Shown here one piece after another: positions 2,621-31,210 of a DNA stretch of 64,000 nt; the stretch's first letter is position 1, and the number at the start of each line of letters is the position of its first letter. Source of the DNA: Halorussus vallis (GTDB taxonomy: Archaea; Halobacteriota; Halobacteria; Halobacteriales; Haladaptataceae). A program made the translations under genes and the position numbers. Location: NCBI RefSeq assembly GCF_024138165.1, contig NZ_CP100000.1:2480001-2544000 (forward strand), read 5' to 3'. A model generated the notes under the pieces. The model had not been told where the DNA came from and made no database searches. It worked only from the letters and a program-made list of their open reading frames with translations.

Positions 2621-4042
2621 TCAGCAGAAGTTCTGGGTGGCGTACACCTTCCCCTCGGACGTGACGTGGACGCCGATTCCCTCGTCGTCCCACGCCGAGA
2701 GGAGGATGTTCTCGCGGTGGCCCTCGGAGTTCATCCACCCGCGGACGATGCCCCGGGCGAGTTCGTCGGCGTTCGTGTACCGGACGGTCCCCTCGCCGGT
2801 CCTGACGTTCGAGTCGTAGTAGGTGTAGAGGATGTTCTCCGCGCCGGTGTAGTACCGGTCGTCGCCCGCGGGCGCCCGGCAGTCGTAGCCGAACTGTTCG
2901 TACCGGTCGGCCCGCGTTTCGCCGTCCGGCGAGACGTGGCTGAAGTAGTCCTCGGCGGCCATGTCCTCGCTGTGGTAGCGGGCTATCTCCCGCAGTTCGG
3001 TGTCGAACGCCAGCGTCCCCAGACCGTGCTCGACGCGCCGCTCGTTGACGTACTCGTGGACGAGTCGCTCGACGCGGCTCCGGTCGAGTTCCGACAGCGG
3101 CGTGTCTCCGGTCGGCGTTTCGGTCCCCTGGGACGGCGCGCCCTCGACGACGAGGTAGCCCACGCGCTCGCCGAGGTGGGCGGTTTCGCGGTCGGCGCTT
3201 CGCTCCTCCTGGACCTTCACCTCGACCGACGACCCCGAGAGGTTCCGGTAGCGCACCGCGCAGGTGTTGGCCCCGCGGAACGTCTGGAGGGCAGCGAGCA
3301 ACACCGGTTCCCGGTAGGTTCCGTCGAACGCTATCGTCCGCCACCCGTGGCCGACGTCGTCGCGGCTTCCCGCCTCGAACGCCCGGCCGTCGAGGGTCCC
3401 CGCGCCGGGTTCGACCGCGAGGTAGCCGACGTCCTCGACGCGGTGGGACCCGCCGGCCTCGGCTTCCTGCAATCGGACGTCGAACCCGGTCCGTCCGACC
3501 GCGCGGTGACGGGGCGCGACGGGTTGGGGGCCGGCGGTGGTCTGGGCCTGCGAGAACACGACGGGCCGACTCGAAAACGCGGCGTCGAAGGTCGGAGACG
3601 CCCAGCGGTGGTCGGTCCGAATCCGCCCGACTTCGAGGGCCGCGCCGTCGGCGAGGTCGTAGCGGCCGGGGTCCGTCGCGACGTAGCCGACGGTTTCCCG
3701 GCGGTGATTTCCGTCGAGGTAGCGCCACTCCTCGACGGCCACCTCGAACCCCGTGCCGGCGACCGCGCGGAGCCGCGGGGTCGCCGGTTGCGGCCCTCGA
3801 TAGGAGAGTCCCGACGCGACCACGACCGGGTCGGAGTGGGTCGACGGCAGTTCGACCGACTGCCACCGGTGGTCGGCCTCGACGGTGGTCGCGTCGACTG
3901 CAGTTCCGGACTGGAGCGCCGCGGCCCCGCCGACCGCGCCGAGTCCGGCGAAACCGACGAGCGCCCCGGCCGTCCGGAGCACGTCGCGTCGTTCGAGTAG
4001 CGATGCCTCTGGGTCGCCTTCGCGTTCCTGTTCGCGTGCCAT
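2621..4042 (-). CDS. Tat-exported CAP-domain protein with three lectin-like repeats
   Basis: A 473-residue secreted protein. The start at 4042 places a twin-arginine signal (Arg18-Arg19, 'RRDVLR', then a hydrophobic Gly/Ala segment) at the N-terminus; a longer upstream frame is Arg-rich and unlikely. Residues about 55-320 hold three related units of 85-95 residues, each with a 'PVV/VLL' strand, 'R.R.v...gF.V' and '..VGYL.VE'. They resemble H-type-lectin-like beta repeats. Residues about 323-473 form a CAP/SCP-PR1 domain with the His (ARYHSEDM), Glu (GAEN) and His (EGHREN) pocket residues. The gene is divergent from the large FG-GAP/Gln-rich gene, suggesting a shared extracellular role. Confidence 0.85.
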   Translation of the reverse strand: MAREQEREGDPEASLLERRDVLRTAGALVGFAGLGAVGGAAALQSGTAVDATTVEADHRWQSVELPSTHSDPVVVASGLSYRGPQPATPRLRAVAGTGFEVAVEEWRYLDGNHRRETVGYVATDPGRYDLADGAALEVGRIRTDHRWASPTFDAAFSSRPVVFSQAQTTAGPQPVAPRHRAVGRTGFDVRLQEAEAGGSHRVEDVGYLAVEPGAGTLDGRAFEAGSRDDVGHGWRTIAFDGTYREPVLLAALQTFRGANTCAVRYRNLSGSSVEVKVQEERSADRETAHLGERVGYLVVEGAPSQGTETPTGDTPLSELDRSRVERLVHEYVNERRVEHGLGTLAFDTELREIARYHSEDMAAEDYFSHVSPDGETRADRYEQFGYDCRAPAGDDRYYTGAENILYTYYDSNVRTGEGTVRYTNADELARGIVRGWMNSEGHRENILLSAWDDEGIGVHVTSEGKVYATQNFC

Positions 4043-4198: not shown

Positions 4199-4270
4199 GG
4201 CTTCGACCAACCTCGCGTTACGACGGTTTCGGCCGTGAGAACGGGTGATAGGGACCGCCTTACCACCTGT

Positions 4271-4311
4271 AATCCGCGTTACCGGTCGGTTGCCAGTTTA
4301 TAACAAAGTCG
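4271..4311 (+). promoter_or_regulatory. Promoter of FG-GAP/Gln-rich gene, shared with second Gln-rich gene
   Basis: TAATCCGCGTTACCG (4271-4285), TTGCCA (4291-4296), TTTATAA (4298-4304, TATA box) and ATAACAAAGTC (4301-4311) precede the start at 4340. The same blocks in the same order occur at 9896-9937 before the second Gln-rich gene. A GGAG site lies just before the ATG. The TATA position would give a short leader. Confidence 0.65.
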
Positions 4312-4339
4312 CGTTCCGGTACATGTCCATCGGAGCAGA

Positions 4340-7300
4340 ATGAGAACACGCGAGGGCGAAAGCGACCGAAGTAGCGTCGGGCGTAACGGCCGTAGAAGCA
4401 CCGTCTTGTTGACCGTACTGTCGTGCCTGCTCGTTGTGAGCAGCGCCGTCGTCTCGGGGGCAGTCGTCGCGTCGGGGTCCGACGCGGCGGCGGCCGAGTC
4501 GACGGCGACCTCCGGAGCGGTCGGTCCGCCGACGGGAGTGGTGAACGTCTCTGATAACTACACGAAAATCGAAGGAGCGGCGACCAACGACAGCGCCGGC
4601 TGGTCGACGTCCTCGGCGGGCGACGTCAACGGCGACGGGGTCACCGACCTGCTGGTCGGCGCGCCCCAGGGCGGCGAGAACGACACCGGCGCGGCCTACC
4701 TGTTCTACGGGCCGGTCGACGAGAGTAACGTCTCGGTCGCGGACGCCGACGTGACCTTCCTCGGCGACAGCCCCGGCGACCGCGCCGGATGGTCGGTCGC
4801 CGCGGGCGACGTCGACGCCGGCGGTCGCTCCGATATCGTAATCGGCGCGCCGTACGACGACGAGGGCGGGACCAACGCGGGCGCGGCCTACGTCGTCTAC
4901 GGCGGCAACCTCTCGGGCACCGTCACGCTCGGCGACGTCGGCGACAAACTCGTCGGGACCGAGAACGGAAGCTACGCCGGATTCGACGTGGCCGCGCGCG
5001 ACGTCGACTCCTCGGACGAACCCGGCGTGCTGGTCGGCGCGCCGTCGAACCTCGACGAGCGTCAATCTGGGAAGGCGTACCTGCTGACGGCGAACTCGAT
5101 CGGAGACACGACGTCGCTCTCGTCGAGCGACGCGACGTTCGTCGGGCGGACTGACACCGGTCGCGCGGGGTGGTCGGTTTCCTGGGCGGGCGACGTCGAC
5201 GACGACGGCGTCGCTGAGGCGGCCGTGGGCGCGCCGCAGTACAACCGGAGTGGTAGTCCGGGCGCCGGCGCCGTCTACGTCGTCGGTTCGGACGCCGAGG
5301 GCGAACGGAACCTGAGCGAGGCCGAAGCGACCGTGGTCGGTGCGAGCGCCAACGACGCCGCCGGGTTCGCCACCGGCGGCGCGGGCGACGCGAACGGCGA
5401 CGGCGTCGCCGACCTCGTCGTCGGCGCGCCGGCGAACGACACCACCGGCCAGAACGCGGGCGCGGCCTACGTCATCTACGGCGGGGAGTCGCTGAACGGG
5501 ACGGTGACGACCGCGAGCGCCGACGTCACGGTCTACGGCGAGCGGCCGGCCGACCGACTCGGCTGGTCGGCCGACGTCGCGGGTGACGTCGACTGCGACG
5601 GCTACGCCGACGTCGTCGTCGGCGCGCCGAACCACGCCAGGACCGGCGCGGCGTACGTCGTCTACGGCCGGTCGAGCGGCGGGTCGTTCGACGCCGCGAA
5701 GTTGATGGGCCAGGCCGCCGGGGACTTCGCCGGCGGCAGCGTCGCCGGCATTCCGGCCGCCGGCGAGGGGCCGGCCGACGTCCTCATCGGCGCGCCCGGG
5801 AGCGACGTGGCCGGCAACGACAGCGGCGCGGCGTACTTAGTCCAGGGACAGTGCGCGGCCGACTCGGCGAACTCGACCGCCTCGATTTCGCCCGACGGCG
5901 GGCGGTCCGGCGCGGTCGACAGCGGCGGGACGTTCGAGTCGGACGCCGAGAGCGGCGCGAGTAACGGAGGTGGGGCGGACTCGGCGGGAAATTCGAACGC
6001 CGGGCGTTCCGACGGTGAGTCGGCGGACGCGAACGCTCGGTCGGGAGACGACGGCGGCGTCGGCGTCGGCGTCGACGCCGACGCCGACGACTCACAGCGG
6101 TCGGCGTCCGACGCCGTCGACGGGACCGGAGTGTCCTTCCTCGCCGACGGCGGAAGCGACGGGGGCGCCGCTTCGGTGAACGGCGGGGACGCCTCCCGCA
6201 ATTCGGACGGAAGCGCTTCGAACGCGGCCGACGCCGCAAGCGGTGCGGACGAGACGCCGGGCGACGGCGAGAACGCCCGGGGCGAGCGAGATGCGCGAAG
6301 CGACCGGTCGGCCGGCGGCGAGGACTCCGGCAGTGAGTCCGGAAGCGGAGACGCCGCGGACGACGGTCAGAACGGCGACGGTGGCGAAGTCGATGACGGC
6401 AGTGCCGGCGGTGATGGCGCGGATGGCGACTCCGGCACGGGGACCGGAGCGCCCGGAGCGACGCCCCCGGAGGAGAGCGACGACCGGAACGCGCCCGACG
6501 ACGGCGGCGAGTCGAGCGCGCCCGACGGCGAGGACGACTCGAACGACCCGAGCGCGCCGAACGGCGGCGGAGACGGAGACGGAGATGGAAACGGAGACGC
6601 GGGCGGTCCGGGCGACGGGGAGTCCGACGCGCCGGCCGACGGCGGAGACGGTTCGGAGACGGACACCCGGAGTCAGAGCCAGGGGCTGTACCTCTATCAG
6701 AACCAGTGCCAGCGCCAGTCCGGCGGTTCGCAGTCCCAGAGCCAGTCCCAGGGCGCCCGCGGCGGCCAGAGCCAGGTGACCTCGGGCGGGGCCGTCTTCT
6801 ACCAGGCGCAGTTCCAGTTCATCCACGTCGTCCAGAACCAGTGTCAGTCCCAGGGCGACGGGAGCGACAACGTCCAGTACCAGCGCCAGACGCTGGTCAT
6901 CGTGTTCAAACAGCAACAGGCTGAGAACGGTTCCGACCGCTCGCAGTCCCAGAACCAGTCGGTCGACTCCGACCAGAACCAGACCCAGACGCAGACGGAG
7001 TCGGGACGGCGCCAGACCCAGACCCAGGTGTTCCGGGTGACGTTCATCCAGCGACAGGACGCCGCCACCGACGGGGGTGGGAACCAGAACCAGTCCCAGC
7101 GCATCGAGGTCGACCAGAACCAGGACCAGTCGCAGGGCGACGGGGCGAACCAGACCCAGACCCAGTTCCAGGTCGTCCGGGTCGTCTACCAGGGACAGGA
7201 CCAGACCCAGACGTACGGCGACCGGACCCAGGCGCAGTCCCAGAACCAGTCGGTCGAAGCCGGCCAGCGCCAGCACCAGGAGCAGACCGCCGACGCCCAG

Positions 7301-8692
7301 AATCAGACCCAGAACGAGAGCGTCGAGGTGCGACAGAACCAGAGCCAGCGCCAGTCCGGCGGTAACCTGACCCAGAACCAGAGCCAGTCGGTCGGCGTCG
7401 ACCAGCGACAGAACCAGACGCAGGGCGACGAGGGGCCGAGTCAGACCCAGAACCAGAGCCAGTCGGTCGACGCGGTGCAGAACCAGACCGAGTCCGGCGG
7501 TGAGAACCAGACGCAGGCCCAGAACCAGACCGCCGAACTGAACCAGAGCCAGACCCAGAACCAGTCGCTGACCAACGGCACCGAGCGCCAGCGGGGTAGC
7601 GTCGACGTCGGACAGAACCAGACCCAGAACCAGACCGGCGAGAACGACACCCAGTCGCAGAACGAGTCGCTCGCCGTCGACCAGAACCAGTCCCAGGAGC
7701 AGACCGACGCCGACCGGACGTCGACCGACGAGTCGAACGCGGACGCCGCCGAGACGACCGCCGCGTCCGAGACGGAATCCGTCTCGACCGCGACGAAGGC
7801 GACGAACGCGTCGACCGGGTCGGAGACGGCGAACGCGAGCGAGGAAACGACGGAGGAAACCGAGACGATGGAGGAAACCGAGACGCCGGACGACGGCGAT
7901 TCGTCGTCCGAGGTCGAGACGACGGAAACCGAGACGACGGAAGAGGAGGTGGCGGAGACGTCCTCGACGGAGGAGACCGCCGAGACGACCGAAGCGGAAC
8001 CGACGCAAGCGCAGGCCGACGACGGGTCGACGGCCCGGACCTCGACGTCGAGTTCGGACGAAGAACCGACGTCGACCGAAGAGCAGACGACGGAGGAGAC
8101 GGCGACCGAGGAATCCGGCGGAGACGAGGAAGCCACCGAAAGCGGCGACGGGGGCACGGACGGCGACGGGAAATCCGCGGAAGACGAAGGCGACGCGGAA
8201 CCGTCGAACGACGGCGAGAAGTCCGCCGAACCCGAAACCGACGAGTCCGGCGAGGAGACGACCGAATCCGAGGACGAGAAGACCGAAGCTGAGGACGAGA
8301 CGACCGAAGACGGGAAGGCGAAGGGCGACCAGAAGGCCGGAGGCGAAGAGAAGACGAAGGAGGACGGGAAGTCCACGGAAGCCGACTCGACCGACTCCGG
8401 GACGAACTCCGCCGGCGGAGAGAAGTCGAAGAAGTCCGAGAAGGCCGCCGGGTCGTCCGAGTCGGCGGCGGGAGACGACGAGCGGTCCGACGACTCGGCG
8501 GACGGGACGGAGACGACGAAGGAGTCCGAACCGGAGACGGCCGACGCGTCGACGCCGACCGAACCGTCGGGCGACGGCGAGTCGGAGGACGAAGAGACGA
8601 CTGAAAAGGAGAGCGACACCACGACGGAGAAGGAGAGCGAGACGACGGCCGAGCAAGTCCGTCCGGGCGAGGGCGTCCTCGCTCCGGCCTGA
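4340..8692 (+). CDS. Giant secreted protein: FG-GAP propeller, Gln/Asn repeats, TES-rich tail
   Basis: A 1450-residue protein with four zones. Residues 1-50 are a Sec-type signal. Residues about 70-505 contain seven FG-GAP repeats ('AGDVNGDGVTD..VGAP' type), four with canonical DxDxDG calcium loops, which predicts a complete seven-bladed integrin-alpha-like propeller. Residues about 505-773 are a Gly/Ser/Asp linker. Residues about 773-1127 are dense in Gln and Asn (QNQTQ, QNQSQ), and more than twenty N-X-S/T sequons fall there. The rest is a Thr/Glu/Ser-rich tail without a C-terminal transmembrane or PGF-CTERM anchor. A GGAG site supports the start. It is probably a calcium-binding surface or matrix adhesin that associates with the other Gln-rich protein; function is inferred. 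Confidence 0.85.
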   Translation: MRTREGESDRSSVGRNGRRSTVLLTVLSCLLVVSSAVVSGAVVASGSDAAAAESTATSGAVGPPTGVVNVSDNYTKIEGAATNDSAGWSTSSAGDVNGDGVTDLLVGAPQGGENDTGAAYLFYGPVDESNVSVADADVTFLGDSPGDRAGWSVAAGDVDAGGRSDIVIGAPYDDEGGTNAGAAYVVYGGNLSGTVTLGDVGDKLVGTENGSYAGFDVAARDVDSSDEPGVLVGAPSNLDERQSGKAYLLTANSIGDTTSLSSSDATFVGRTDTGRAGWSVSWAGDVDDDGVAEAAVGAPQYNRSGSPGAGAVYVVGSDAEGERNLSEAEATVVGASANDAAGFATGGAGDANGDGVADLVVGAPANDTTGQNAGAAYVIYGGESLNGTVTTASADVTVYGERPADRLGWSADVAGDVDCDGYADVVVGAPNHARTGAAYVVYGRSSGGSFDAAKLMGQAAGDFAGGSVAGIPAAGEGPADVLIGAPGSDVAGNDSGAAYLVQGQCAADSANSTASISPDGGRSGAVDSGGTFESDAESGASNGGGADSAGNSNAGRSDGESADANARSGDDGGVGVGVDADADDSQRSASDAVDGTGVSFLADGGSDGGAASVNGGDASRNSDGSASNAADAASGADETPGDGENARGERDARSDRSAGGEDSGSESGSGDAADDGQNGDGGEVDDGSAGGDGADGDSGTGTGAPGATPPEESDDRNAPDDGGESSAPDGEDDSNDPSAPNGGGDGDGDGNGDAGGPGDGESDAPADGGDGSETDTRSQSQGLYLYQNQCQRQSGGSQSQSQSQGARGGQSQVTSGGAVFYQAQFQFIHVVQNQCQSQGDGSDNVQYQRQTLVIVFKQQQAENGSDRSQSQNQSVDSDQNQTQTQTESGRRQTQTQVFRVTFIQRQDAATDGGGNQNQSQRIEVDQNQDQSQGDGANQTQTQFQVVRVVYQGQDQTQTYGDRTQAQSQNQSVEAGQRQHQEQTADAQNQTQNESVEVRQNQSQRQSGGNLTQNQSQSVGVDQRQNQTQGDEGPSQTQNQSQSVDAVQNQTESGGENQTQAQNQTAELNQSQTQNQSLTNGTERQRGSVDVGQNQTQNQTGENDTQSQNESLAVDQNQSQEQTDADRTSTDESNADAAETTAASETESVSTATKATNASTGSETANASEETTEETETMEETETPDDGDSSSEVETTETETTEEEVAETSSTEETAETTEAEPTQAQADDGSTARTSTSSSDEEPTSTEEQTTEETATEESGGDEEATESGDGGTDGDGKSAEDEGDAEPSNDGEKSAEPETDESGEETTESEDEKTEAEDETTEDGKAKGDQKAGGEEKTKEDGKSTEADSTDSGTNSAGGEKSKKSEKAAGSSESAAGDDERSDDSADGTETTKESEPETADASTPTEPSGDGESEDEETTEKESDTTTEKESETTAEQVRPGEGVLAPA
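6660..7720 (+). repeat. Gln/Asn-rich repeat zone with dense N-glycosylation sequons
   Basis: Degenerate coding repeats built on cagaaccagacc-type units encode NQTQ, NQSQ and RQNQSQ runs, interrupted in the first half by beta-prone hydrophobic stretches (e.g. FYQAQFQFIHVVQ). The NQ[ST] pattern makes more than twenty archaeal N-glycosylation sequons within about 260 residues. Confidence 0.8.
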
Positions 8693-8705
8693 TTCGATAC
8701 TGACC

Positions 8706-8738
8706 GCCGGGTCGGCGAGGCGGCCTCGCCGACCCGGC
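8706..8738. terminator. Bidirectional hairpin terminator between convergent genes
   Basis: Fifteen-base arms (gccgggtcggcgagg and complement) with a 3-base loop lie in the 82-base gap between the convergent FG-GAP gene and the small secreted-protein gene. A TTTT run follows at 8751-8754. Confidence 0.65.
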
Positions 8739-8774
8739 CACCGCGACCGTTTTACCGACTACGTCGCCGTCGAC

Positions 8775-9530
8775 CTACGCGTCGTCGCTCCGGGTCGTCC
8801 GGTTCGCGTCCTCGCTCCCGCCGATGTTGGCGCAGTTCCGGAAGACCGAGACGGTCTCCTCGTCGCCGAGGTCGCCGGTCGACGCGAAGACGGCGACGAA
8901 CTGGTCCTCGTCGACGGACGCCGTGGCGTTCCCTTCGAGCGTCCTCGTCGCGCTCTGCGAGGAGGTCGAGTCTGGCGTAACCGACAGGGCGGTGACCTTG
9001 GCGGTGTACTCCGTCCCCTCGGGCGCGACGAACCGGACCTCACTGTCGTTGCAGGAGATCTCGACTTCCGGGACGGCGTCGGATTCCGTCTCGGTCGTCT
9101 CGGTCGTCGCGGTCGCCGACGCGTTTGCTTCGCTCGCGCAGTTGCGCACCGCCGACGCGACCGTCTCCTCTCCCGAGGAGTCCTGAACGAAGGCGAACGC
9201 GATTCCCTCGCCGTCGAGTTCGAACGTCTCGTTGCCCTCGACGCCCCCGACCGTCGAACTCGACACGTCGCTCTCGGTCGGCGTGACGTTCGCGACCGCG
9301 ACCGTGACCCGGTGGCTCGCGCCCTCGGGCGCCGTGAGTTCGACGGTGCCCTCGGTGCAGTTGACGTCGACGGTCACCTCGGTTTCGCCCGTCATCGCGT
9401 CCCCCGCGTCGAGTTCTCCGCGGTCGGTCGGTACCCCTCCATCGCCGATTCCCGCGCCGACGGTTCCGGCGCCCGCGACGAGCACCACCGCGAGTGCGAC
9501 GGCCGCGAGCGACCTCCCTGTCCGAAACAT
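8775..9530 (-). CDS. Secreted protein with two duplicated ~80-residue domains
   Basis: The chosen start at 9530 gives MFRTGRSLAAVALAVVLVAG, a Sec-type signal peptide, and is preceded by GGAG five bases upstream; an ATG eight codons earlier is less suitable. The 251-residue product contains two related domains. Each begins with 'C..(S/G).V.(L/F).APEG' followed by 'VTPxxSxxSSxT' and ends with '(E)ETV.S..RNCA', so each has a Cys near both ends, likely a disulfide. No known family is recognised. It is convergent with the FG-GAP gene and divergent from the second Gln-rich gene, so it may belong to the same extracellular system. Confidence 0.7.
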   Translation of the reverse strand: MFRTGRSLAAVALAVVLVAGAGTVGAGIGDGGVPTDRGELDAGDAMTGETEVTVDVNCTEGTVELTAPEGASHRVTVAVANVTPTESDVSSSTVGGVEGNETFELDGEGIAFAFVQDSSGEETVASAVRNCASEANASATATTETTETESDAVPEVEISCNDSEVRFVAPEGTEYTAKVTALSVTPDSTSSQSATRTLEGNATASVDEDQFVAVFASTGDLGDEETVSVFRNCANIGGSEDANRTTRSDDA

Positions 9531-9984
9531 ATCCGCTCCACATCGGCCGGGCATATATTACTTCTCCCGAGGTCGGTCCTCTGCGCTCGGCCGGAACTCT
9601 CCGAAAGTCGGAGCGACTCGATACGGTCAGCTATCGGAATTAACTGGCTTGCTAACCGGTTTCGCACGCGTTCGGACGTCCGTTACTTCCGGTCGGAACG
9701 CGTCGGGGCAAAGTTCGCCGCGTTCACCCCGGCAAAACGGGAGTTTTCCGGGACGAATCGAACGATACTCGCGTTTCAAGCTCCGACCGGCGGAGTCTCG
9801 ATTCCGAGAGCGCCGGACGGCGGCCGAGTCGACTCGGTTTTCCGAGAGTACTCTGAAACCGAAGCAACGCGCATTATGTGGGGATATACGACGGATAATC
9901 TCCGTTATCGTTGCCAATGTAGGTGAATAACAAAGTCAGGAAATGCTGAACGTCGCGGTGCGGCAGGGGAGCCGCAGTGAAACA
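9531..9984. other. Intergenic region between divergent secreted-protein genes
   Basis: About 450 bases without a gene. A TATA-like ATATAT patch (9551-9558) serves the minus-strand gene. The plus-strand promoter for the Gln-rich repeat gene occupies the right end. The remaining middle section shows no clear structure. Confidence 0.5.
9896..9937 (+). promoter_or_regulatory. Promoter of Gln-rich repeat gene, matches that of FG-GAP gene
   Basis: TAATCTCCGTTATCG (9896-9910), TTGCCA (9911-9916) and ATAACAAAGTC (9927-9937) repeat, in order, blocks found at 4271-4311. The last block is identical over 11 bases. Spacing between blocks differs by a few bases. Confidence 0.65.
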
Positions 9985-12618
9985 ATGAGAATCAGGAAAT
10001 CGACAGTTGGCCGGTTCATGGCGCTGTTGTTCGCGCTCGTAGTCGCGACCAGCGTCATGGTGCCCGGTTTCGCAGCAGCGACGACCGCGCAGCCGCAGTG
10101 CGCCGACGACCAGTCGCAGACGCAGTGGGTAGATGCCAATCAGTCGGCGTCCGAGCAGTCAATCGGAGTCGGCAATAATCAGTCCGGTGAGCAGAACATC
10201 GACGGCGGTCTCGACCAGGACCAGTCCGCGACCGGCGACGACAACTGCCAGACGCAGGCGCAGGGAATCACCGAAGGTAACCAGTCGCAGGATCAGGTTA
10301 TCCTCCTCGGCGCCTACAACGACCAGAGCGGCGTGCAGAACGCCGACGTCTACGGCGACCAGGACCAGTCGATCGAGAACGGCGACAACAACACCCAGGA
10401 GGCCTACGGCGACTACTACTTCGACCAGCGCCAGATTCAGGCCATCTTCTACGGCGCCGGTAACGACCAAGACGGTTCCCAGGACGCCTCCCAGTCGAGC
10501 GACCAGGTCCAGTCGGTCGAGAACGGGTCGAGCAACCTCCAGATAGAGGACAGCTACCAGGACATCGCCCAGAAGCAGGTCCAGTTCGTCGCCTTCGGCA
10601 ACAACAACGACCAGGACGCGGGCCAGGCGGCGTCCCAGGACAACGACCAGGTCCAGTCGGTCGAGAACGGGTCGAACAACACCCAGTACGCGAGCAACGA
10701 ACAGACCATCGCTCAGCGACTGGCGCAGGTCGTGCTCTTCGGCGACGGTAACGACCAGAACGCGGCCCAGACCGCGGCCCAGGACAACGAGCAGGTCCAG
10801 ACGATAGAGAACGGGTCGAACAACACCCAGGTCGCGACCAACGACCAGGAAGCCACCCAGGACCTGGCGCAGGTCGTCGTCTTCGGTGACGACAACGAGC
10901 AGACCGGCGACCAGGACGTCTTCCAGGAGAACGACCAGGTCCAGTCGGTCGAGAACGGGTCGGACAACACCCAGTCTGCCGACAACGAGCAGAGCGCCGA
11001 CCAGCACAGCGAGCAGGACGTCTACTACGGCGACAACAACACGCAGGCGTCGAACCAGAACGCCGCGCAGGTCAACGACCAGAACCAGTCCATCGTCGAC
11101 GGCTCCAACAGTTCGCAGTCGGCCGCCAACGACCAGGACATCTCGCAGAGCGACGACCAGGACATCACCAACGGCGACAAGAACCTGCAGGAGTCCGATC
11201 AGGACGCTTCGCAGACCAACGCGCAGGACCAGAACGCGACCGGCGACTACAACGAGCAGTCGGCCGACAACGACCAGGACGCTTCGCAGTCGAGCGACCA
11301 GTCGGTCAAGAACGGTGACAAGAACGACCAGATCAACGACCAGGACGCTGCCCAGTCGAGCGACCAGGAGCAGGACGTCACCGGCGACTACAACGACCAG
11401 GACGCCGAGAGCGACCAGGACGCCGACCAGGACAACGAGCAGTCGGTCAAGAACGGCGACAAGAACGACCAGACCAACGACCAGGACGCTGCCCAGTCGA
11501 ACGAGCAGGACCAGGACGCTCGCGGCGACTACAACGACCAGGACGCCGACAGCGACCAGGACAGCGACCAGAACAACGACCAGTCGGTCAAGAACGGCGA
11601 CAAGAACGACCAGTCGAACACCCAGAGCAGCGGACAGAACAGCGAACAGGAGCAGATAGCGAACGGCGACGACAACGACCAGGACGCCGACAGCGACCAG
11701 GAGAGCGACCAAGACAGCGAACAGTCGGTCAAAGACGGCGACAAGAACGACCAGGACAGCGACCAGGAGAGCGACCAGACCAACGACCAGGTCCAGGGCG
11801 CTCAGGGTGACGACAACGAGCAGGACGCCGAGAGCGACCAGGACAACGACCAGGACAGCGAACAGTCGGTCAAGGACGGCGACAAGAACGACCAGGACAG
11901 CGACCAAGACAGCGAGCAGAACAGCCAGCAGGACCAGGGCGCTCAGGGTGACGACAACGAGCAGGACGCCGAAAGCGACCAGGACAGCGACCAGAACAGC
12001 GAGCAGGAAGTCGAGGACGGCGACAAGAACGACCAGGAGTCGGACCAGACCAGCGACCAGAACTCCGACCAGGAGCAGGACGCTCGCGGTGACGACAACG
12101 ACCAGGACCAGAGCAGCGACCAAGAGAGCGACCAGGACAGCGAGCAGTCGGTCGAAGACGGCGACAACAACGACCAGGAGAGCGACCAGAGCAGCGACCA
12201 GGAGAGCGACCAGACTCAGGCCGCCAGCGGTAGCGGCAACGACCAGGACCAGAGCCAGAGCAGCGACGTCGACCAAGACAGCGAGCAGGAAGTCGAGGAC
12301 GGTAGCAACAACGACCAGGACCAGTCGTCGAGTGCCTCCACCGACCAGGACCAGAGCCAGTCGGCCAGCGGCACCGACAACGACCAGGACCAGAGTCAGA
12401 GCGCCGACGTCGACCAGGACCAGAGCCAGAGCGCGTCTGGCGACGGTAACGACCAGGACCAGAGCCAGACGGTTTCGACCGACCAGGACCAGAGTCAGAG
12501 CACGTCCGGTAGCGGCAACGACCAGGACCAGAGCCAGTCGGTCAGCATCGACACCGACCAGGACCAGGACTCGGACAACAGCACGTCGGTCATGACGGCT
12601 CCGCCGCTCGGCTTCTGA
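9985..12618 (+). CDS. Secreted Gln/Asp/Asn-rich repeat protein (curlin-like repeats)
   Basis: From the ATG at 9985 the product is 877 residues. A Sec signal (MRIRKSTVGRFMALLFALVV, then AxA-like GFAAATTA) precedes about 34 tandem units of 23-24 residues. The consensus is roughly 's-V-x-n-G-d-x-N-d-Q-x6-Q-x3-Q-x3-Q', with alternate units forming 46-48-residue super-repeats. The Gly-x-x-Asn-x-x and regularly spaced Gln pattern resembles curlin (CsgA) repeats, which form amyloid beta-solenoids. Early units keep aromatic/aliphatic residues (VVLFGDGN); later ones are nearly all D, N, Q and S. Only two Cys, no anchor. An upstream ATG (9943) would add 14 residues. Fibre formation is inferred. Confidence 0.8.
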   Translation: MRIRKSTVGRFMALLFALVVATSVMVPGFAAATTAQPQCADDQSQTQWVDANQSASEQSIGVGNNQSGEQNIDGGLDQDQSATGDDNCQTQAQGITEGNQSQDQVILLGAYNDQSGVQNADVYGDQDQSIENGDNNTQEAYGDYYFDQRQIQAIFYGAGNDQDGSQDASQSSDQVQSVENGSSNLQIEDSYQDIAQKQVQFVAFGNNNDQDAGQAASQDNDQVQSVENGSNNTQYASNEQTIAQRLAQVVLFGDGNDQNAAQTAAQDNEQVQTIENGSNNTQVATNDQEATQDLAQVVVFGDDNEQTGDQDVFQENDQVQSVENGSDNTQSADNEQSADQHSEQDVYYGDNNTQASNQNAAQVNDQNQSIVDGSNSSQSAANDQDISQSDDQDITNGDKNLQESDQDASQTNAQDQNATGDYNEQSADNDQDASQSSDQSVKNGDKNDQINDQDAAQSSDQEQDVTGDYNDQDAESDQDADQDNEQSVKNGDKNDQTNDQDAAQSNEQDQDARGDYNDQDADSDQDSDQNNDQSVKNGDKNDQSNTQSSGQNSEQEQIANGDDNDQDADSDQESDQDSEQSVKDGDKNDQDSDQESDQTNDQVQGAQGDDNEQDAESDQDNDQDSEQSVKDGDKNDQDSDQDSEQNSQQDQGAQGDDNEQDAESDQDSDQNSEQEVEDGDKNDQESDQTSDQNSDQEQDARGDDNDQDQSSDQESDQDSEQSVEDGDNNDQESDQSSDQESDQTQAASGSGNDQDQSQSSDVDQDSEQEVEDGSNNDQDQSSSASTDQDQSQSASGTDNDQDQSQSADVDQDQSQSASGDGNDQDQSQTVSTDQDQSQSTSGSGNDQDQSQSVSIDTDQDQDSDNSTSVMTAPPLGF
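10162..12567 (+). repeat. About 34 tandem coding repeats of ~70 bp
   Basis: Tandem units of 69-72 bases such as aacgaccaggac... encode the G..N.Q...Q motif. Units in the middle third (SVKNGDKNDQ / GDYNDQDA pairs) are nearly identical at the DNA level, implying recent duplication or recombination. Confidence 0.85.
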
Positions 12619-17447: not shown

Positions 17448-19046
17448 CTACACGAGGTCGGCGCCCGCCGTCTCGGCGGTTTCCGCGAAGCGACCGTCGG
17501 CGACCAACTCGGCGGTTTCCCGAATCTCCTCGTGGAGCGAGGTGTCGGCCAGCGGGAGGCCGACCGCCTCGTCGAGGTCGGCGGCAACCGCGGCCAGCGC
17601 GTCGGGGAGTTCGGTCCCGGCCAGTTCGGTCCGCCGCGATGCGCACAGCAGTTCGACGGCGACGATGCGCCGGACCGCCTCGACGGCCTCGGCGAGGTGC
17701 CGCGCCGCGAGGGTGCCGAGGCTGTGGACGTCCTCCTGGCCGCCCGACACCGTCACCGACCGACCGCTGGCGGAGGTGCGAGTCTCCAGTTCCGCGGCCA
17801 GCCCCGTCGCGGTGTAGTGGCCGATCATCATCCCCGATTCGAGCCCCGGATTCGCCGCGAGGAAGGCCGCGACGCCGTCCCCGTCGACGTCGCTGACCAG
17901 TTTGTTCGCGCGCCGCTCGCTCACCCGTCCCACCTTCTGGACCGCGGTCCGCAGCATGTCGGCCGCGCCGGCCATCTGCTGCCCGTTGAAGTTGCCGCAG
18001 GAGAACGTCTCTCCGTCGGGGAACACCAGCGGGTTGTCGGTCGCGCTGGCGAGTTCGGTCTCGACCACCCGCCGGGCGAACGCGAGTTGTTCGCGGAGCG
18101 CGCCGTGGACCTGCGGGATGCACCGGAGCGAGAGCGGGTCCTGGGTCATCTCGTGGTCGCCGTCCGGCGTCGCGCCGACGAGTCGGCGGACGTTGGCCGC
18201 CGACTCGGCGTGCCCCTCGTAGGGGCGGACCTCGGTGACCCGCTCGGCGAACGCGGTCGGGGCCTCCCCGAGGAGTTCGAACGTCCAGGCGCCCGCGAGG
18301 TCGGCGGTCCGGACCAACCGCTCGGTGTCGTGGACGCCGAGCGCGAGCAGGCCGGTCGTTATCGGCGTCCCGCTCACGACCGCGAGTCCCTCCTTAGCCT
18401 TCGGTTCGAGTGGGTCGACGCCCGCCTCCGAAAGGGCGACCGCGGCGTCGACGCCGCGGTCGCCCCTGCGCTCGCTGCTTCGTCGATGGTCGCGCTCGTC
18501 GCTCCGTCGGCTCTCGTTTCGCCGGCGGTCGGTTCGCCGTTCGTCGCTTCGGGACTCCCTCGGCGGCAGGCGCTCAACCTCGCCTTCGCCCATCAGGACG
18601 AGTCCGATGTGGGCGGCCGCGCCGAGGTCGTCGGTGCTCCCGTCGGCCGGGACGACCGGGTGGACGCCCTCGTTGAGCAGTTCGACGAGTTTCTCGACCA
18701 GTTCGACCCGCACGCCCGACGCGCCGACCGCGAGGGCGTTCGCGCGGGCCAGCATCGCGGCCCGGACGACGTCGGTCGGCAGCGGGTCGCCCACGGCGGT
18801 CGCGTGGCTTCGGAGCAGGTTCTCTTGGAGTTCGTCGAGGTCGTCGCGGGAGATCGAGACGTTCTGGAGGTCGCCGAACCCGGTGTTGACGCCGTAGACG
18901 CGCCGGTCGCCGTCGACGATGTCGTCGACCGCGTCGCGGCTCGCCACGATGCGGTCGCGGGTTTCGGGCGGTAGTCGGACGGGTTCGCGGCCGCGGGCGA
19001 CCGCGACGACGTCGTCTATCGTGAGTTCTCCGGTGAGTCGTACCAT
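17448..19046 (-). CDS. HAL/PAL-family lyase paralogue lacking the MIO motif (ergothionase-like candidate)
   Basis: This 532-residue protein aligns along its whole length with the HutH in this window. The MIO-forming Ala-Ser-Gly loop (GSLGASGDLAP in HutH) is replaced by GSTDDLGAAAH (residues 136-146). The HutH active-site Asn (INGT) is Ser225 and the Tyr of 'DAYSIR' is Leu305. Conserved are Tyr51 (VYGVNTGFG), His81, Arg308 and Glu438 (GGQED). Ordinary MIO-dependent deamination is therefore unlikely. Ergothionases, which release trimethylamine from ergothioneine, are reported as MIO-less HAL relatives, so a histidine-betaine lyase is the best guess. Residues about 160-203 are an Arg/Ser/Asp insertion carrying a palindrome. 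It lies 118 bases downstream of a betaine-type ABC operon. Confidence 0.75.
   Translation of the reverse strand: MVRLTGELTIDDVVAVARGREPVRLPPETRDRIVASRDAVDDIVDGDRRVYGVNTGFGDLQNVSISRDDLDELQENLLRSHATAVGDPLPTDVVRAAMLARANALAVGASGVRVELVEKLVELLNEGVHPVVPADGSTDDLGAAAHIGLVLMGEGEVERLPPRESRSDERRTDRRRNESRRSDERDHRRSSERRGDRGVDAAVALSEAGVDPLEPKAKEGLAVVSGTPITTGLLALGVHDTERLVRTADLAGAWTFELLGEAPTAFAERVTEVRPYEGHAESAANVRRLVGATPDGDHEMTQDPLSLRCIPQVHGALREQLAFARRVVETELASATDNPLVFPDGETFSCGNFNGQQMAGAADMLRTAVQKVGRVSERRANKLVSDVDGDGVAAFLAANPGLESGMMIGHYTATGLAAELETRTSASGRSVTVSGGQEDVHSLGTLAARHLAEAVEAVRRIVAVELLCASRRTELAGTELPDALAAVAADLDEAVGLPLADTSLHEEIRETAELVADGRFAETAETAGADLV
18434..18465. repeat. Perfect 32-bp palindrome inside the HAL-like gene
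   Basis: Arms gggcgaccgcggcgtc and exact complement with no spacer, at one end of a low-complexity Arg/Ser/Asp-coding insertion (about 18438-18569) absent from HutH. It resembles the palindrome embedded in the 3' end of hutG. Confidence 0.8.
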
Positions 19047-28378: not shown

Positions 28379-29634
28379 GCGACCTCACGGCGGTCGTCCA
28401 CGACGCCGCCCAGGTCGTCACGCTGGAAGCGGGCGAGCGCGAGAACGGCCCAGAACTCGGCATCTACGAGGACGCCGCGGTCGCCGTCGAGGACGGCGAG
28501 GTCGTCCGCGTGGGCGCGACCGGCCCGGTCACCCGGGAGTATCCGCCGGAGAACGCCGAGCACGCCGTCGACGCCTCGGGCAAGGCCGTGATTCCGGGGT
28601 TCGTCGACCCCCACACCCACGCGCTGTTCGCGGGCGACCGCTCCGACGAGTTCGAGGCGAAACTCCGGGGCAAGACCTACCAGGAGATACTCGAGGAGGG
28701 CGGCGGCATCCTCCGGACCGTCCGGGCCACCCGCGAGGCGAGCGACGAGGAACTGCTCGACAATCTGCTCGGGCACCTCGACGCGATGCTCGCCCACGGC
28801 ACCACGACGGTCGAGGTCAAGTCGGGCTACGGACTGGACACCGAGACGGAACTCCGGATGCTGGAGGTCATCGACCGCGCCGACCGCGAACATCCCCTCG
28901 ACGTGGTCCCGACGTTCATGGGCGCCCACGCGGTGCCGCAGGGCCGGGACGCCGACGACTACGTCGACGAGGTCGTCGACGAGCAGATTCCCGCGGTCGC
29001 AAAGCAGGGTATCGCGGAGTTCTGCGACGTGTTCTGCGAGGAGGGCGTCTTCGACGTCGAGCAGTCCCGGCGCGTGCTGGAGGCCGGGACGGACGCGGGG
29101 ATGACCCCGAAGGTCCACGCCGAGGAACTCGCCCACATCGGCGGCACGCAACTCGCCGCGGAGGTCGGGGCGACCAGCGCCGACCACCTGCTCCACTCGA
29201 CCGAGGAGGACGTCGACGCACTGGTCGTGAACGATGTAGTCCCAGTGTTGCTTCCGGGCACCGCCTTCGGCCTCGGCGCGGCCTACGCCGACGCGCGGGC
29301 GTTCCTCGACGCGGGCGCGCCGGTCGCGGTGGCGACCGACTTCAACCCCAACTGCTACAGCCAGAGCATGGGGTTCGCCGCCGCGCTGTCGTGCGTCGAG
29401 ATGGGGATGACCCCCGCCGAAGCGCTGGTCGCCTCCACGACGAACGCCGCGAAGGCGCTCGACCGCCCCGAACCGGTCGGCACCCTCCGGGAGGGTGCGC
29501 CCGCCGACCTCGCGGTGCTCGACGCGCCGAGCTACGTCCACGTCCCGTACAACTTCGGCGTCAACGCGGTCGAAACCGTGCTGAAGGGCGGCGAGGTGGT
29601 CTGTCGCGACGGAGCGGTGATCCGAGATGAGTGA
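28375..29634 (+). CDS. hutI: Imidazolonepropionase
   Basis: A 419-residue amidohydrolase. The metal site is PGFVDPHTHALF, with 'GYGLDTETELRML', 'KVHAEEL' and 'ATDFNPNCYSQSM', all typical of HutI. It opens the imidazolone ring to N-formimidoyl-glutamate. ATGA overlap with hutG and an 8-base overlap with hutH show a tightly coupled operon. The first 60 residues form the small beta domain usual in amidohydrolases. Confidence 0.96.
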   Translation: MSDLTAVVHDAAQVVTLEAGERENGPELGIYEDAAVAVEDGEVVRVGATGPVTREYPPENAEHAVDASGKAVIPGFVDPHTHALFAGDRSDEFEAKLRGKTYQEILEEGGGILRTVRATREASDEELLDNLLGHLDAMLAHGTTTVEVKSGYGLDTETELRMLEVIDRADREHPLDVVPTFMGAHAVPQGRDADDYVDEVVDEQIPAVAKQGIAEFCDVFCEEGVFDVEQSRRVLEAGTDAGMTPKVHAEELAHIGGTQLAAEVGATSADHLLHSTEEDVDALVVNDVVPVLLPGTAFGLGAAYADARAFLDAGAPVAVATDFNPNCYSQSMGFAAALSCVEMGMTPAEALVASTTNAAKALDRPEPVGTLREGAPADLAVLDAPSYVHVPYNFGVNAVETVLKGGEVVCRDGAVIRDE

Positions 29635-31210
29635 CCGTTCCGAACCGGTCCGTCTCGACGGCGAGCACCTCACCCCCGAAGACGTGGCCGCGGTCGCCCG
29701 CGAGGATGTCCCGGTGGCGATTCCGGAGTCGGCCCGCGAGAAGGTCCGGACCGCCCGCGAGCGCGTCGAGGAGGTGGTCGAGAGCGGCGAGGTCGTCTAC
29801 GGCCTCAACACCGGATTCGGCGAACTCGTCGACGAGCGCATCCCGCCCGAGGACATCGAGCAACTCCAACTCAACCTCGTCCGGAGCCACGCCGCGGGCG
29901 CGGGCCGCGAACTGACCCGCGAGGAGGTCCGAGCGATGCTCCTGGGCCGAATCAACGCGCTGGTCAAGGGCTACTCGGGCGTCCGGGAGGTGGTCGTCGA
30001 CCACCTCGCCGCGATGCTGAACGAGGGCGTCCATCCGGTCGTCAAGTCCCGCGGGAGTCTGGGCGCGAGCGGCGACCTCGCGCCGCTCGCGCATCTCGCG
30101 CTGGTACTCGTTGGAGAGGGTCAGGCCGATGTCGACGGCGAGCGAATGGACGGCGCGGAGGCGCTTGCGACCGCCGACCTCGACCCCCTGACACTCCGCG
30201 CGAAGGAGGGGTTGGCGCTCATCAACGGGACCCAGCTATCGGCCGGCCTCGCCGCGCTCGCGGTGGTCGACGCCGAGCGCGCGATTCGGGCCGCCGACGT
30301 GGCCGGCGCGCTCACGACCGAGGTGACGATGGGCACCACCGCCGCCTGCGACGAGTCCATCGCCCGGGTGCGCCCCCATGCGGGTCACGCCGAGAGTGCG
30401 CGCAACGTCAAGCGCCTCACCGCCGACTCCGAGGTCGTCGAGTCCCACCGCAACTGCGACCGGGTTCAGGACGCCTACTCGATTCGGTGCCTGCCCCAGG
30501 TCCACGGCGCGGTCCGGGACGCGGTCGCGCACCTCCGCGAGGCGGTCGAAGTCGAACTCAACAGCGCGACCGACAACCCGCTCATCTTCGACGCCGCCGA
30601 CGCCGACGACCGGGCCAGCGGCACCGAGAACGCCGCGGTGCTGTCGGGCGGCAACTTCCACGGCGACCCGCTGGCGATGCCGCTGGACTACCTCACCAAC
30701 GCTGTGACCGAACTCGCGGCCATCTCCGAGCGACGGGTCGACCGGATGCTCAACCCGAACGTCCAGGAACCGCACCTCCCGGCGTTCCTGACCGAGGGCA
30801 GCGGCCTGCGCTCGGGCTACATGATCGCCCAGTACACCGCGGCCGCGCTGGTCAACGAGAACCGCGCCACCGGCCGACCCTCGATGGACAACACGCCGGT
30901 CAGCGGCAACCAGGAGGATCACGTGAGCATGAGCGCCCAGTCGGCGTTCGACGCGCGCGGCGCGGTCGAGAACGCGATCTCGGTCGTCGGCATCGAACTG
31001 CTCTGCGGCGCCCAGGCCGCGGAGTTCCTCCCCGAGGACCTCGCCCACGGCGTCGGCACCGCGGCCGCCTACGAGGCGGTCCGGAACGCGGTGCCGCCGC
31101 TGGTCGAGGACCGACCGATACACGAGGACATCGAGCGCGCGGACGCGCTGGTGTGGTCGGGGATGCTCGAAGAGCGCGTCGAAGAGGCGCTCGGCGCGGA
31201 ACTGGCGTAG
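29627..31210 (+). CDS. hutH: Histidine ammonia-lyase
   Basis: A 527-residue MIO enzyme that deaminates histidine to urocanate. The MIO triad Ala147-Ser148-Gly149 lies in 'RGSLGASGDLAPLAH', with Tyr58 (VYGLNTGFG), INGT Asn, 'DAYSIRCLPQV' and 'NQEDHVSM' all present. It is the complete, presumably active counterpart to the MIO-less paralogue at 17448-19046. Last gene of the operon; it overlaps hutI by 8 bases and is followed by a hairpin. Confidence 0.96.
   Translation: MSDRSEPVRLDGEHLTPEDVAAVAREDVPVAIPESAREKVRTARERVEEVVESGEVVYGLNTGFGELVDERIPPEDIEQLQLNLVRSHAAGAGRELTREEVRAMLLGRINALVKGYSGVREVVVDHLAAMLNEGVHPVVKSRGSLGASGDLAPLAHLALVLVGEGQADVDGERMDGAEALATADLDPLTLRAKEGLALINGTQLSAGLAALAVVDAERAIRAADVAGALTTEVTMGTTAACDESIARVRPHAGHAESARNVKRLTADSEVVESHRNCDRVQDAYSIRCLPQVHGAVRDAVAHLREAVEVELNSATDNPLIFDAADADDRASGTENAAVLSGGNFHGDPLAMPLDYLTNAVTELAAISERRVDRMLNPNVQEPHLPAFLTEGSGLRSGYMIAQYTAAALVNENRATGRPSMDNTPVSGNQEDHVSMSAQSAFDARGAVENAISVVGIELLCGAQAAEFLPEDLAHGVGTAAAYEAVRNAVPPLVEDRPIHEDIERADALVWSGMLEERVEEALGAELA

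Follow-up and report, generated by a model that had tools for sequence, protein, structure and literature searches.

Two large genes in a stretch of the Halorussus vallis genome encode secreted proteins rich in glutamine (Gln), which raises the question of whether the two proteins work together outside the cell, and what they might build there. The stretch (hereafter the window) covers 64,000 nucleotides (nt) of assembly GCF_024138165.1 (contig NZ_CP100000.1, positions 2,480,001-2,544,000), from a genome of 5.05 Mb (5,051,069 bases) in 5 contigs, and all coordinates below are window-based. The original prediction, made from the letters of the window, placed the genes at 4340-8692 (gene 1) and 9985-12618 (gene 2) and proposed that they share a promoter and form one fibre or matrix system, flanked by genes for an exported CAP-domain protein and a small exported two-domain protein. 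Both open reading frames (ORFs) are real and both encode signal peptides; these, and the lack of a transmembrane segment in the tail of gene 1, were judged by eye. We computed the promoter module, the co-occurrence of the genes, the geometry of their repeats and the similarities of their profiles. Our analysis suggests, with better than even confidence, that the pair is a two-protein extracellular fibre system, with gene 2 as a curli-like fibre and gene 1 as an FG-GAP anchor and nucleator. The features of the pair are as follows.

4269..4282, plus strand: operator-like palindrome GTAATCCGCGTTAC upstream of gene 1, an exact inverted repeat of the form GTAA-Y-N4-R-TTAC
4300..4310, plus strand: TATA-like box ATAACAAAGTC of gene 1, 17 nt past the palindrome; ATAACAAA is kept in most orthologues
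4340..8692, plus strand: gene 1, ORF with a Sec-type signal peptide, encoding a 1450-residue secreted FG-GAP propeller protein with a Gln zone and an acidic tail; proposed anchor/nucleator
4601..5854, plus strand: FG-GAP (integrin-alpha-like) propeller with DxNxDG-type loops, for example DVNGDGVTD (PF01839, E 8.2e-35, six stretches)
6674..7714, plus strand: Gln zone of 347 residues with a period of about 23, Q-x-Q-x-Q strands and two conserved QxQCQ motifs (44-65% identity among 7 genomes)
7715..8692, plus strand: acidic C-terminal tail rich in Thr, Glu and Ser, without a transmembrane segment, poorly conserved in alignment
9895..9908, plus strand: operator-like palindrome ATAATCTCCGTTAT upstream of gene 2, an imperfect copy that agrees at 8 of 10 half-site positions; the box follows after 18 nt
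9927..9937, plus strand: TATA-like box ATAACAAAGTC of gene 2, the second identical 11-mer of the window pair
9985..12618, plus strand: gene 2, ORF with a Sec-type signal peptide, encoding an 877-residue secreted GxxNxQ repeat protein; proposed curli-like fibre subunit

Co-occurrence and probable co-regulation of the pair

Gene 1 and gene 2 share one promoter module, in which a palindrome GTAAY-N4-RTTAC, or a close variant, is followed after 17-18 nt by a TATA-like ATAACAAA. We wrote the module consensus from aligned orthologous promoters and afterwards scored it on homologues and background tiles. In its loose form (TAATN5TTA-N16..20-TAACAA) the module has exactly two matches in the 5,051,069 bases of the genome, both at the pair, and a backwards control has one. 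The shared upstream blocks described earlier therefore stand in part: the palindrome-plus-ATAACAAAGTC module is specific to the pair genome-wide, and the conserved block at both genes is better read as an inverted repeat, perfect in GTAATCCGCGTTAC and imperfect in ATAATCTCCGTTAT. TTGCCA, which occurs in both window promoters, is not conserved when orthologous promoters are read side by side. A strict motif that included it matched gene 2 only, its set order and spacing being too narrow, and was replaced by the palindrome-plus-box form. We also dropped the ATAACAAAGTC 11-mer alone as a shared motif, because it is non-specific (7 genome copies, versus 2 for a backwards control).

Among gene-1 orthologues, 6 of 7 carry the module 67-71 nt ahead of the ATG, genome G264 being the one without it; the module also stands upstream of 10 gene-2 homologues, in most of them at 80-92 nt from the start codon. 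It is missing from an extra gene-2 paralogue in G016, and a decayed gene-2 copy in G264 keeps the palindrome and part of the box. A score of at least 16 was reached by 14 of 1,790 background tiles, which include the module-bearing genes themselves. Across families, the spacing of the module has been kept while the promoter sequence has diverged. Since the module occurs genome-wide at two genes only and its footprint is kept across families, the predicted co-regulation of gene 1 and gene 2 is well supported. For gene 2 we prefer the start at 9985 over an in-frame ATG at 9943, which is too near the TATA-like box (9927-9937) to lie downstream of the transcription start.

In the mechanism that we propose, a single regulator bound to the palindrome upstream of both TATA boxes would turn the pair on together. 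Proteins of the DUF7344 family (PF24035, E 2e-21 to 5e-29 for the four scanned) are encoded beside or near gene 2 at loci L110, L111, L112 and L120, and also at L113-L116, where they were assigned by similarity or position. A distant DUF7344 gene of the window genome (L006:1633-2241, plus strand) has one of the seven ATAACAAAGTC boxes upstream. DUF7344 is accordingly a candidate regulator family for the palindrome, a lead and not a proof. Two similar, non-coding-looking stretches (L002 and L003) carry CCCATAACAAAGTC; at these and the remaining ATAACAAAGTC sites outside the pair, Rfam identified no known RNA.

Homologues were counted over 392 genomes. Strong matches to the Gln zone (E < 1e-45) occur in exactly 7 genomes, with gene 2 next door in all, and strong gene-2 matches in 10. 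The adjacent pair is thus found in 7 haloarchaeal genomes of 3 families, which refutes the notion that orthologues never co-occur. Besides the window, gene-1 orthologues are encoded in G016 and G011, both Halorussus, and in G060, G285, G191 and G264, the four genomes outside the genus where the core pair is adjacent. The chance of the overlap between gene 1 and gene 2 is 4.5e-13 if the genomes are treated as independent and phylogeny is ignored; they are not independent, and a fair count of the pairing is 3 families, or about three independent groups. In Halorussus its distribution is patchy, with 3 of 18 genomes carrying the pair, as expected for a surface system that is gained and lost.

Repeat architecture of the two proteins

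The repeat protein encoded by gene 2 is built like a fibre, as had been proposed. Between irregular ends, a G-x-x-N-x-Q turn recurs every 23 or 24 residues, 33 times in all. Across 191 units from 7 homologues, Asp or Glu account for 45-87% of residues at almost every odd position of the strand and for 0-2% at the even ones, which hold Gln, Ala, Ser, Asn and Val; only the turn (positions 24 and 1-3) departs from the alternation. Judged from the sequence, this pattern is the signature of a beta-strand of roughly 20 residues that is acidic and wet on one face, polar and packed on the other. In 10 of 10 gene-2 homologues a unit resembles the next but one (55-79%) more than its immediate neighbour (24-64%), so the real unit of the structure is a rung of two strands and about 47 residues. 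AlphaFold2 likewise returned strands of about 20 residues joined by short turns, with a best predicted local distance difference test (pLDDT) score of 79. The Foldseek list is weak and made up mostly of parallel beta-solenoids, and includes the curli subunit CsgA (PDB 8c50) and FapC.

In gene 1, the FG-GAP propeller proposed earlier is borne out by PF01839, with several repeats over the cut-off; its loops resemble calcium-binding loops, and a variable acidic linker precedes the Gln zone. That the two proteins share no domain beyond Gln/Asn repeats proved too strong a statement: profile-profile comparison of the Gln zone with gene 2 scored 55, against a maximum of 16.2 in 40 column-shuffled controls, and a repeat period of about 23 residues is common to both. 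The related zones could interact. The Gln zone had no match among solved structures and no relative among viral contigs. Plasmid matches of gene 1 fall in its FG-GAP half (positions 64-505 in Halorussus records), not in the Gln zone. Weak Gln-zone matches from other families looked like different Gln-repeat proteins and were set aside. Other secreted Gln/Asp repeat families with GxxN-type units, often in tandem pairs, occur at L117, L118, L119, L120 and L132 in several haloarchaeal families.

We infer fibre formation, the placement of residues inward or outward, nucleation, anchoring and the accessory roles from these data, as follows. Gene 2 would be the fibre subunit, each unit forming one beta-strand of about 20 residues and then a tight G-x-x-N turn. 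Successive strands A and B would form one 47-residue rung, and the rungs would stack in register, with Gln, Asn, Ala, Ser and Val pointing inward as ladders and Asp and Glu outward as a salt-tolerant, cation-binding surface. The propeller of gene 1 may bind the cell surface or matrix and so serve as an anchor, and its Gln zone would template the assembly of gene 2, in analogy to CsgB for CsgA. By that analogy gene 1 is a probable nucleator; like CsgB, it has a repeat zone related to that of its fibre subunit, as the profile comparison found. In the Halorussus genomes studied, the small protein and the CAP protein would be added as accessory parts.

Relationship to curli and alternative readings

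The nearest known design is that of curli, whose structures include CsgA R15.5 of Pontibacter korlensis (PDB 8c50; PMC10192328). A gene-2 profile (A3) matches this protein at E 5.8e-9, and the match was lost when 8c50 was shuffled 200 times or reversed; low complexity inflates E-values of this kind. The likeness of the pair to CsgA/CsgB extends to a secreted repeat protein with x-G-x-x-N turns, predicted inward Gln/Asn ladders and outward Asp/Glu rows, to two strands per rung, and to a partner whose related repeat might act as nucleator. Gene 2 shares with curlins the G-x-x-N turn with in/out alternation (33 turns, 191 units), but where a curlin fits two short strands into a rung of about 22-23 residues, gene 2 has two strands in a rung of about 47. 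Its build would be the beta-arcade of curli, with the length of each strand more than doubled. The pair further differs from curli in that the partner, gene 1, bears an FG-GAP propeller and the host is an archaeon without an outer membrane.

Genuine Curlin_rpt (PF07012) proteins are found in haloarchaea in 5 of 392 genomes. In four genomes of another family, relatives of the small two-domain protein adjoin such proteins, two of which were scanned and gave E 5.8e-38 and 2.1e-45. One kind of proposed accessory thus accompanies true curlins in one group and gene 2 in the other, which is independent support for a relation to curli. The haloarchaeal Curlin_rpt genes thus resemble gene 2 in host group and in this neighbour, but differ in having short canonical repeats, a different promoter, and sensor-kinase and response-regulator genes nearby. 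At L053, L054, L055 and L056 the genuine Curlin_rpt proteins adjoin both the small two-domain protein and a 179-residue Tat-like protein. G016 itself encodes a 347-residue canonical curlin with a charged C-terminal extension (L079:8420-9463, minus strand). Close to it are a HalX response regulator and a Cache sensor kinase, and regulators of a similar kind also occur in the vicinity of L053-L056.

Several results weigh against a curli-like fibre system. Three genomes of one other genus (G236, G296 and G320) have gene 2 without gene 1, and gene 2 is interrupted in G191 and decayed in G264 (L115:8025-11092; L116:9014-10405) beside an intact gene 1. The five AlphaFold2 models of gene 2 disagree, with pLDDT falling from 79 to 27, and Foldseek gave it no global match (template modelling score at most about 0.2). 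Because the models disagree and the Foldseek matches are weak, the topology proposed here is read from sequence and is unproven by model. A wider gene-2 profile also matches a formin chain (E 4.9e-6), so composition can mislead. PF07012 gives no match to gene 2 at cut-offs up to E 1, or to the orthologues in G016 and G011 at up to E 10, and profiles A3 and A7 match the haloarchaeal curlin of G016 but miss those of G239 and G331. Finally, no CsgG was found in 9 of 9 genomes with these genes, while an E. coli control was positive. Absence of CsgG is expected in cells without an outer membrane, and any curli likeness would not extend to secretion. We nevertheless claim that gene 2 may work like a curlin even though PF07012 does not recognise it, and that by its sequence it most likely encodes a curli-like extracellular fibre, which may be an amyloid. 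Our fullest reading, a first archaeal nucleator-fibre amyloid that combines an enlarged curli-like beta-arcade (47-residue rung, 20-residue strands) with an FG-GAP tether and a dedicated palindrome, possibly bound by DUF7344, and that dispenses with CsgG, is put forward tentatively, as somewhat less than an even prospect.

In G236, both gene-2 homologues lie near a paralogous secreted Gln/Ala-repeat protein of about 400 residues (L109:5462-6673, plus strand; L110:11901-13184, minus strand). These repeat proteins have no Pfam match, and the family is a possible alternative partner of gene 2.

The repeat geometry would also suit a beta-repeat rod, either an arcade or an antiparallel meander, that acts as a soluble or cell-attached adhesin stalk and does not self-assemble, with gene 1 as a calcium-dependent adhesin that binds it. 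The FG-GAP domain, the irregular ends of gene 2 and the uncertain AlphaFold2 topology suit such a stalk. We consider it unlikely, however, given that the better match between units two apart favours in-register stacking of like strands, that a gene-2 profile matches a curli subunit, and that the small protein is associated with Curlin_rpt proteins. Haloarchaea make acidic mucin-like surface proteins, and the Gln/Asp-rich proteins of the pair could instead be disordered, hydrated polymers of the halomucin kind that hold water and cations in a matrix and form no ordered fibres. Their secretion, low complexity and very high content of Asp, Glu, Gln and Ser are what such polymers would have, but disorder gives no reason to keep a strict alternation over 191 units, to fix the GxxN turn or to conserve an A/B rung in 10 homologues, and we hold this to be quite improbable. 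Least credible by far is that the linkage and shared promoter mark a mobile island of surface proteins whose promoters were copied and whose products do not cooperate, a view that would fit the patchy distribution and varied gene orders but not a pairing kept in 3 families despite many other changes, a promoter spacing kept while the sequence diverged, or related repeat zones.

Proposed accessory genes and known systems

The original prediction had grouped gene 1 and gene 2 with two further genes.

2621..4042, minus strand: CAP-domain protein (PF00188, E 5.2e-16) with a Tat-like N-terminus and a repeated N-terminal region
8775..9554, minus strand: small secreted protein with two immunoglobulin (Ig)/fibronectin type III (FN3)-like domains (residues 57-142 and 158-245, AlphaFold2 pLDDT about 90); proposed accessory

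This four-gene set holds up within narrow limits. All four genes are linked in three Halorussus genomes (the window, G016 and G011), in differing orders and orientations, but the small and CAP genes are more loosely attached: they join the pair in Halorussus only, and homologue promoter scoring did not find the module at either. The small protein is linked to the pair in both G016 and G011. It has no Pfam match, and Foldseek listed generic FN3 domains only, with no specific match to a curli chaperone; a CsgC/CsgH-type chaperone was rejected on both sequence and fold. The CAP protein, also linked to the pair in G016 and G011 (68-70% identity), is 66% identical to a Halorussus ruber counterpart. 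Full-length CAP proteins are encoded away from the pair in other Halorussus, and none accompanies the pair outside the genus, so we rejected a core role for CAP. Relatives of the N-terminal region of the Halorussus protein, at 31-37% identity, occur in Saprospiraceae and other Bacteroidetes (L135, L136 and L137).

Elsewhere in the window lie two paralogous aromatic amino acid lyase genes (PF00221), at 17448-19046 on the minus strand and 29627-31210 on the plus strand. The former lacks the Ala-Ser-Gly triad that forms the 4-methylidene-imidazol-5-one (MIO) group (GS---TDDLGAAAH versus GSLGASGDLAPLAH) and carries a charged low-complexity insert.

Within the library of papers searched, no account of these genes turned up. 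A survey of curli from 2012 recorded a single archaeal protein with curli-like repeats and counted it as non-curli (PMC3521004). The sheaths of Methanospirillum and Methanothrix are likewise archaeal, extracellular and amyloid-like, but form a tubular cell sheath (PMC6242892, PMC10593813); no link between them and the repeat described here emerged, and no test aimed at one was made. Other FG-GAP, integrin-alpha-like surface proteins of Halorussus have a propeller as in gene 1, but among the relatives found a Gln zone beside gene 2 occurs in 7 genomes only. The biofilm matrix of Haloferax volcanii stains with Congo red and thioflavin T, and an amyloid protein was proposed for it but not identified, with HVO_1403 suggested by the authors (PMC4180959).

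The pair described here is a candidate, in seven genomes, for the amyloid of haloarchaeal biofilms, with a defined operator and with a predicted fibre architecture and anchor. If this is true, it would extend the curli-like design to archaea that lack CsgG, and would show how such a fibre is adapted to near-saturated salt.

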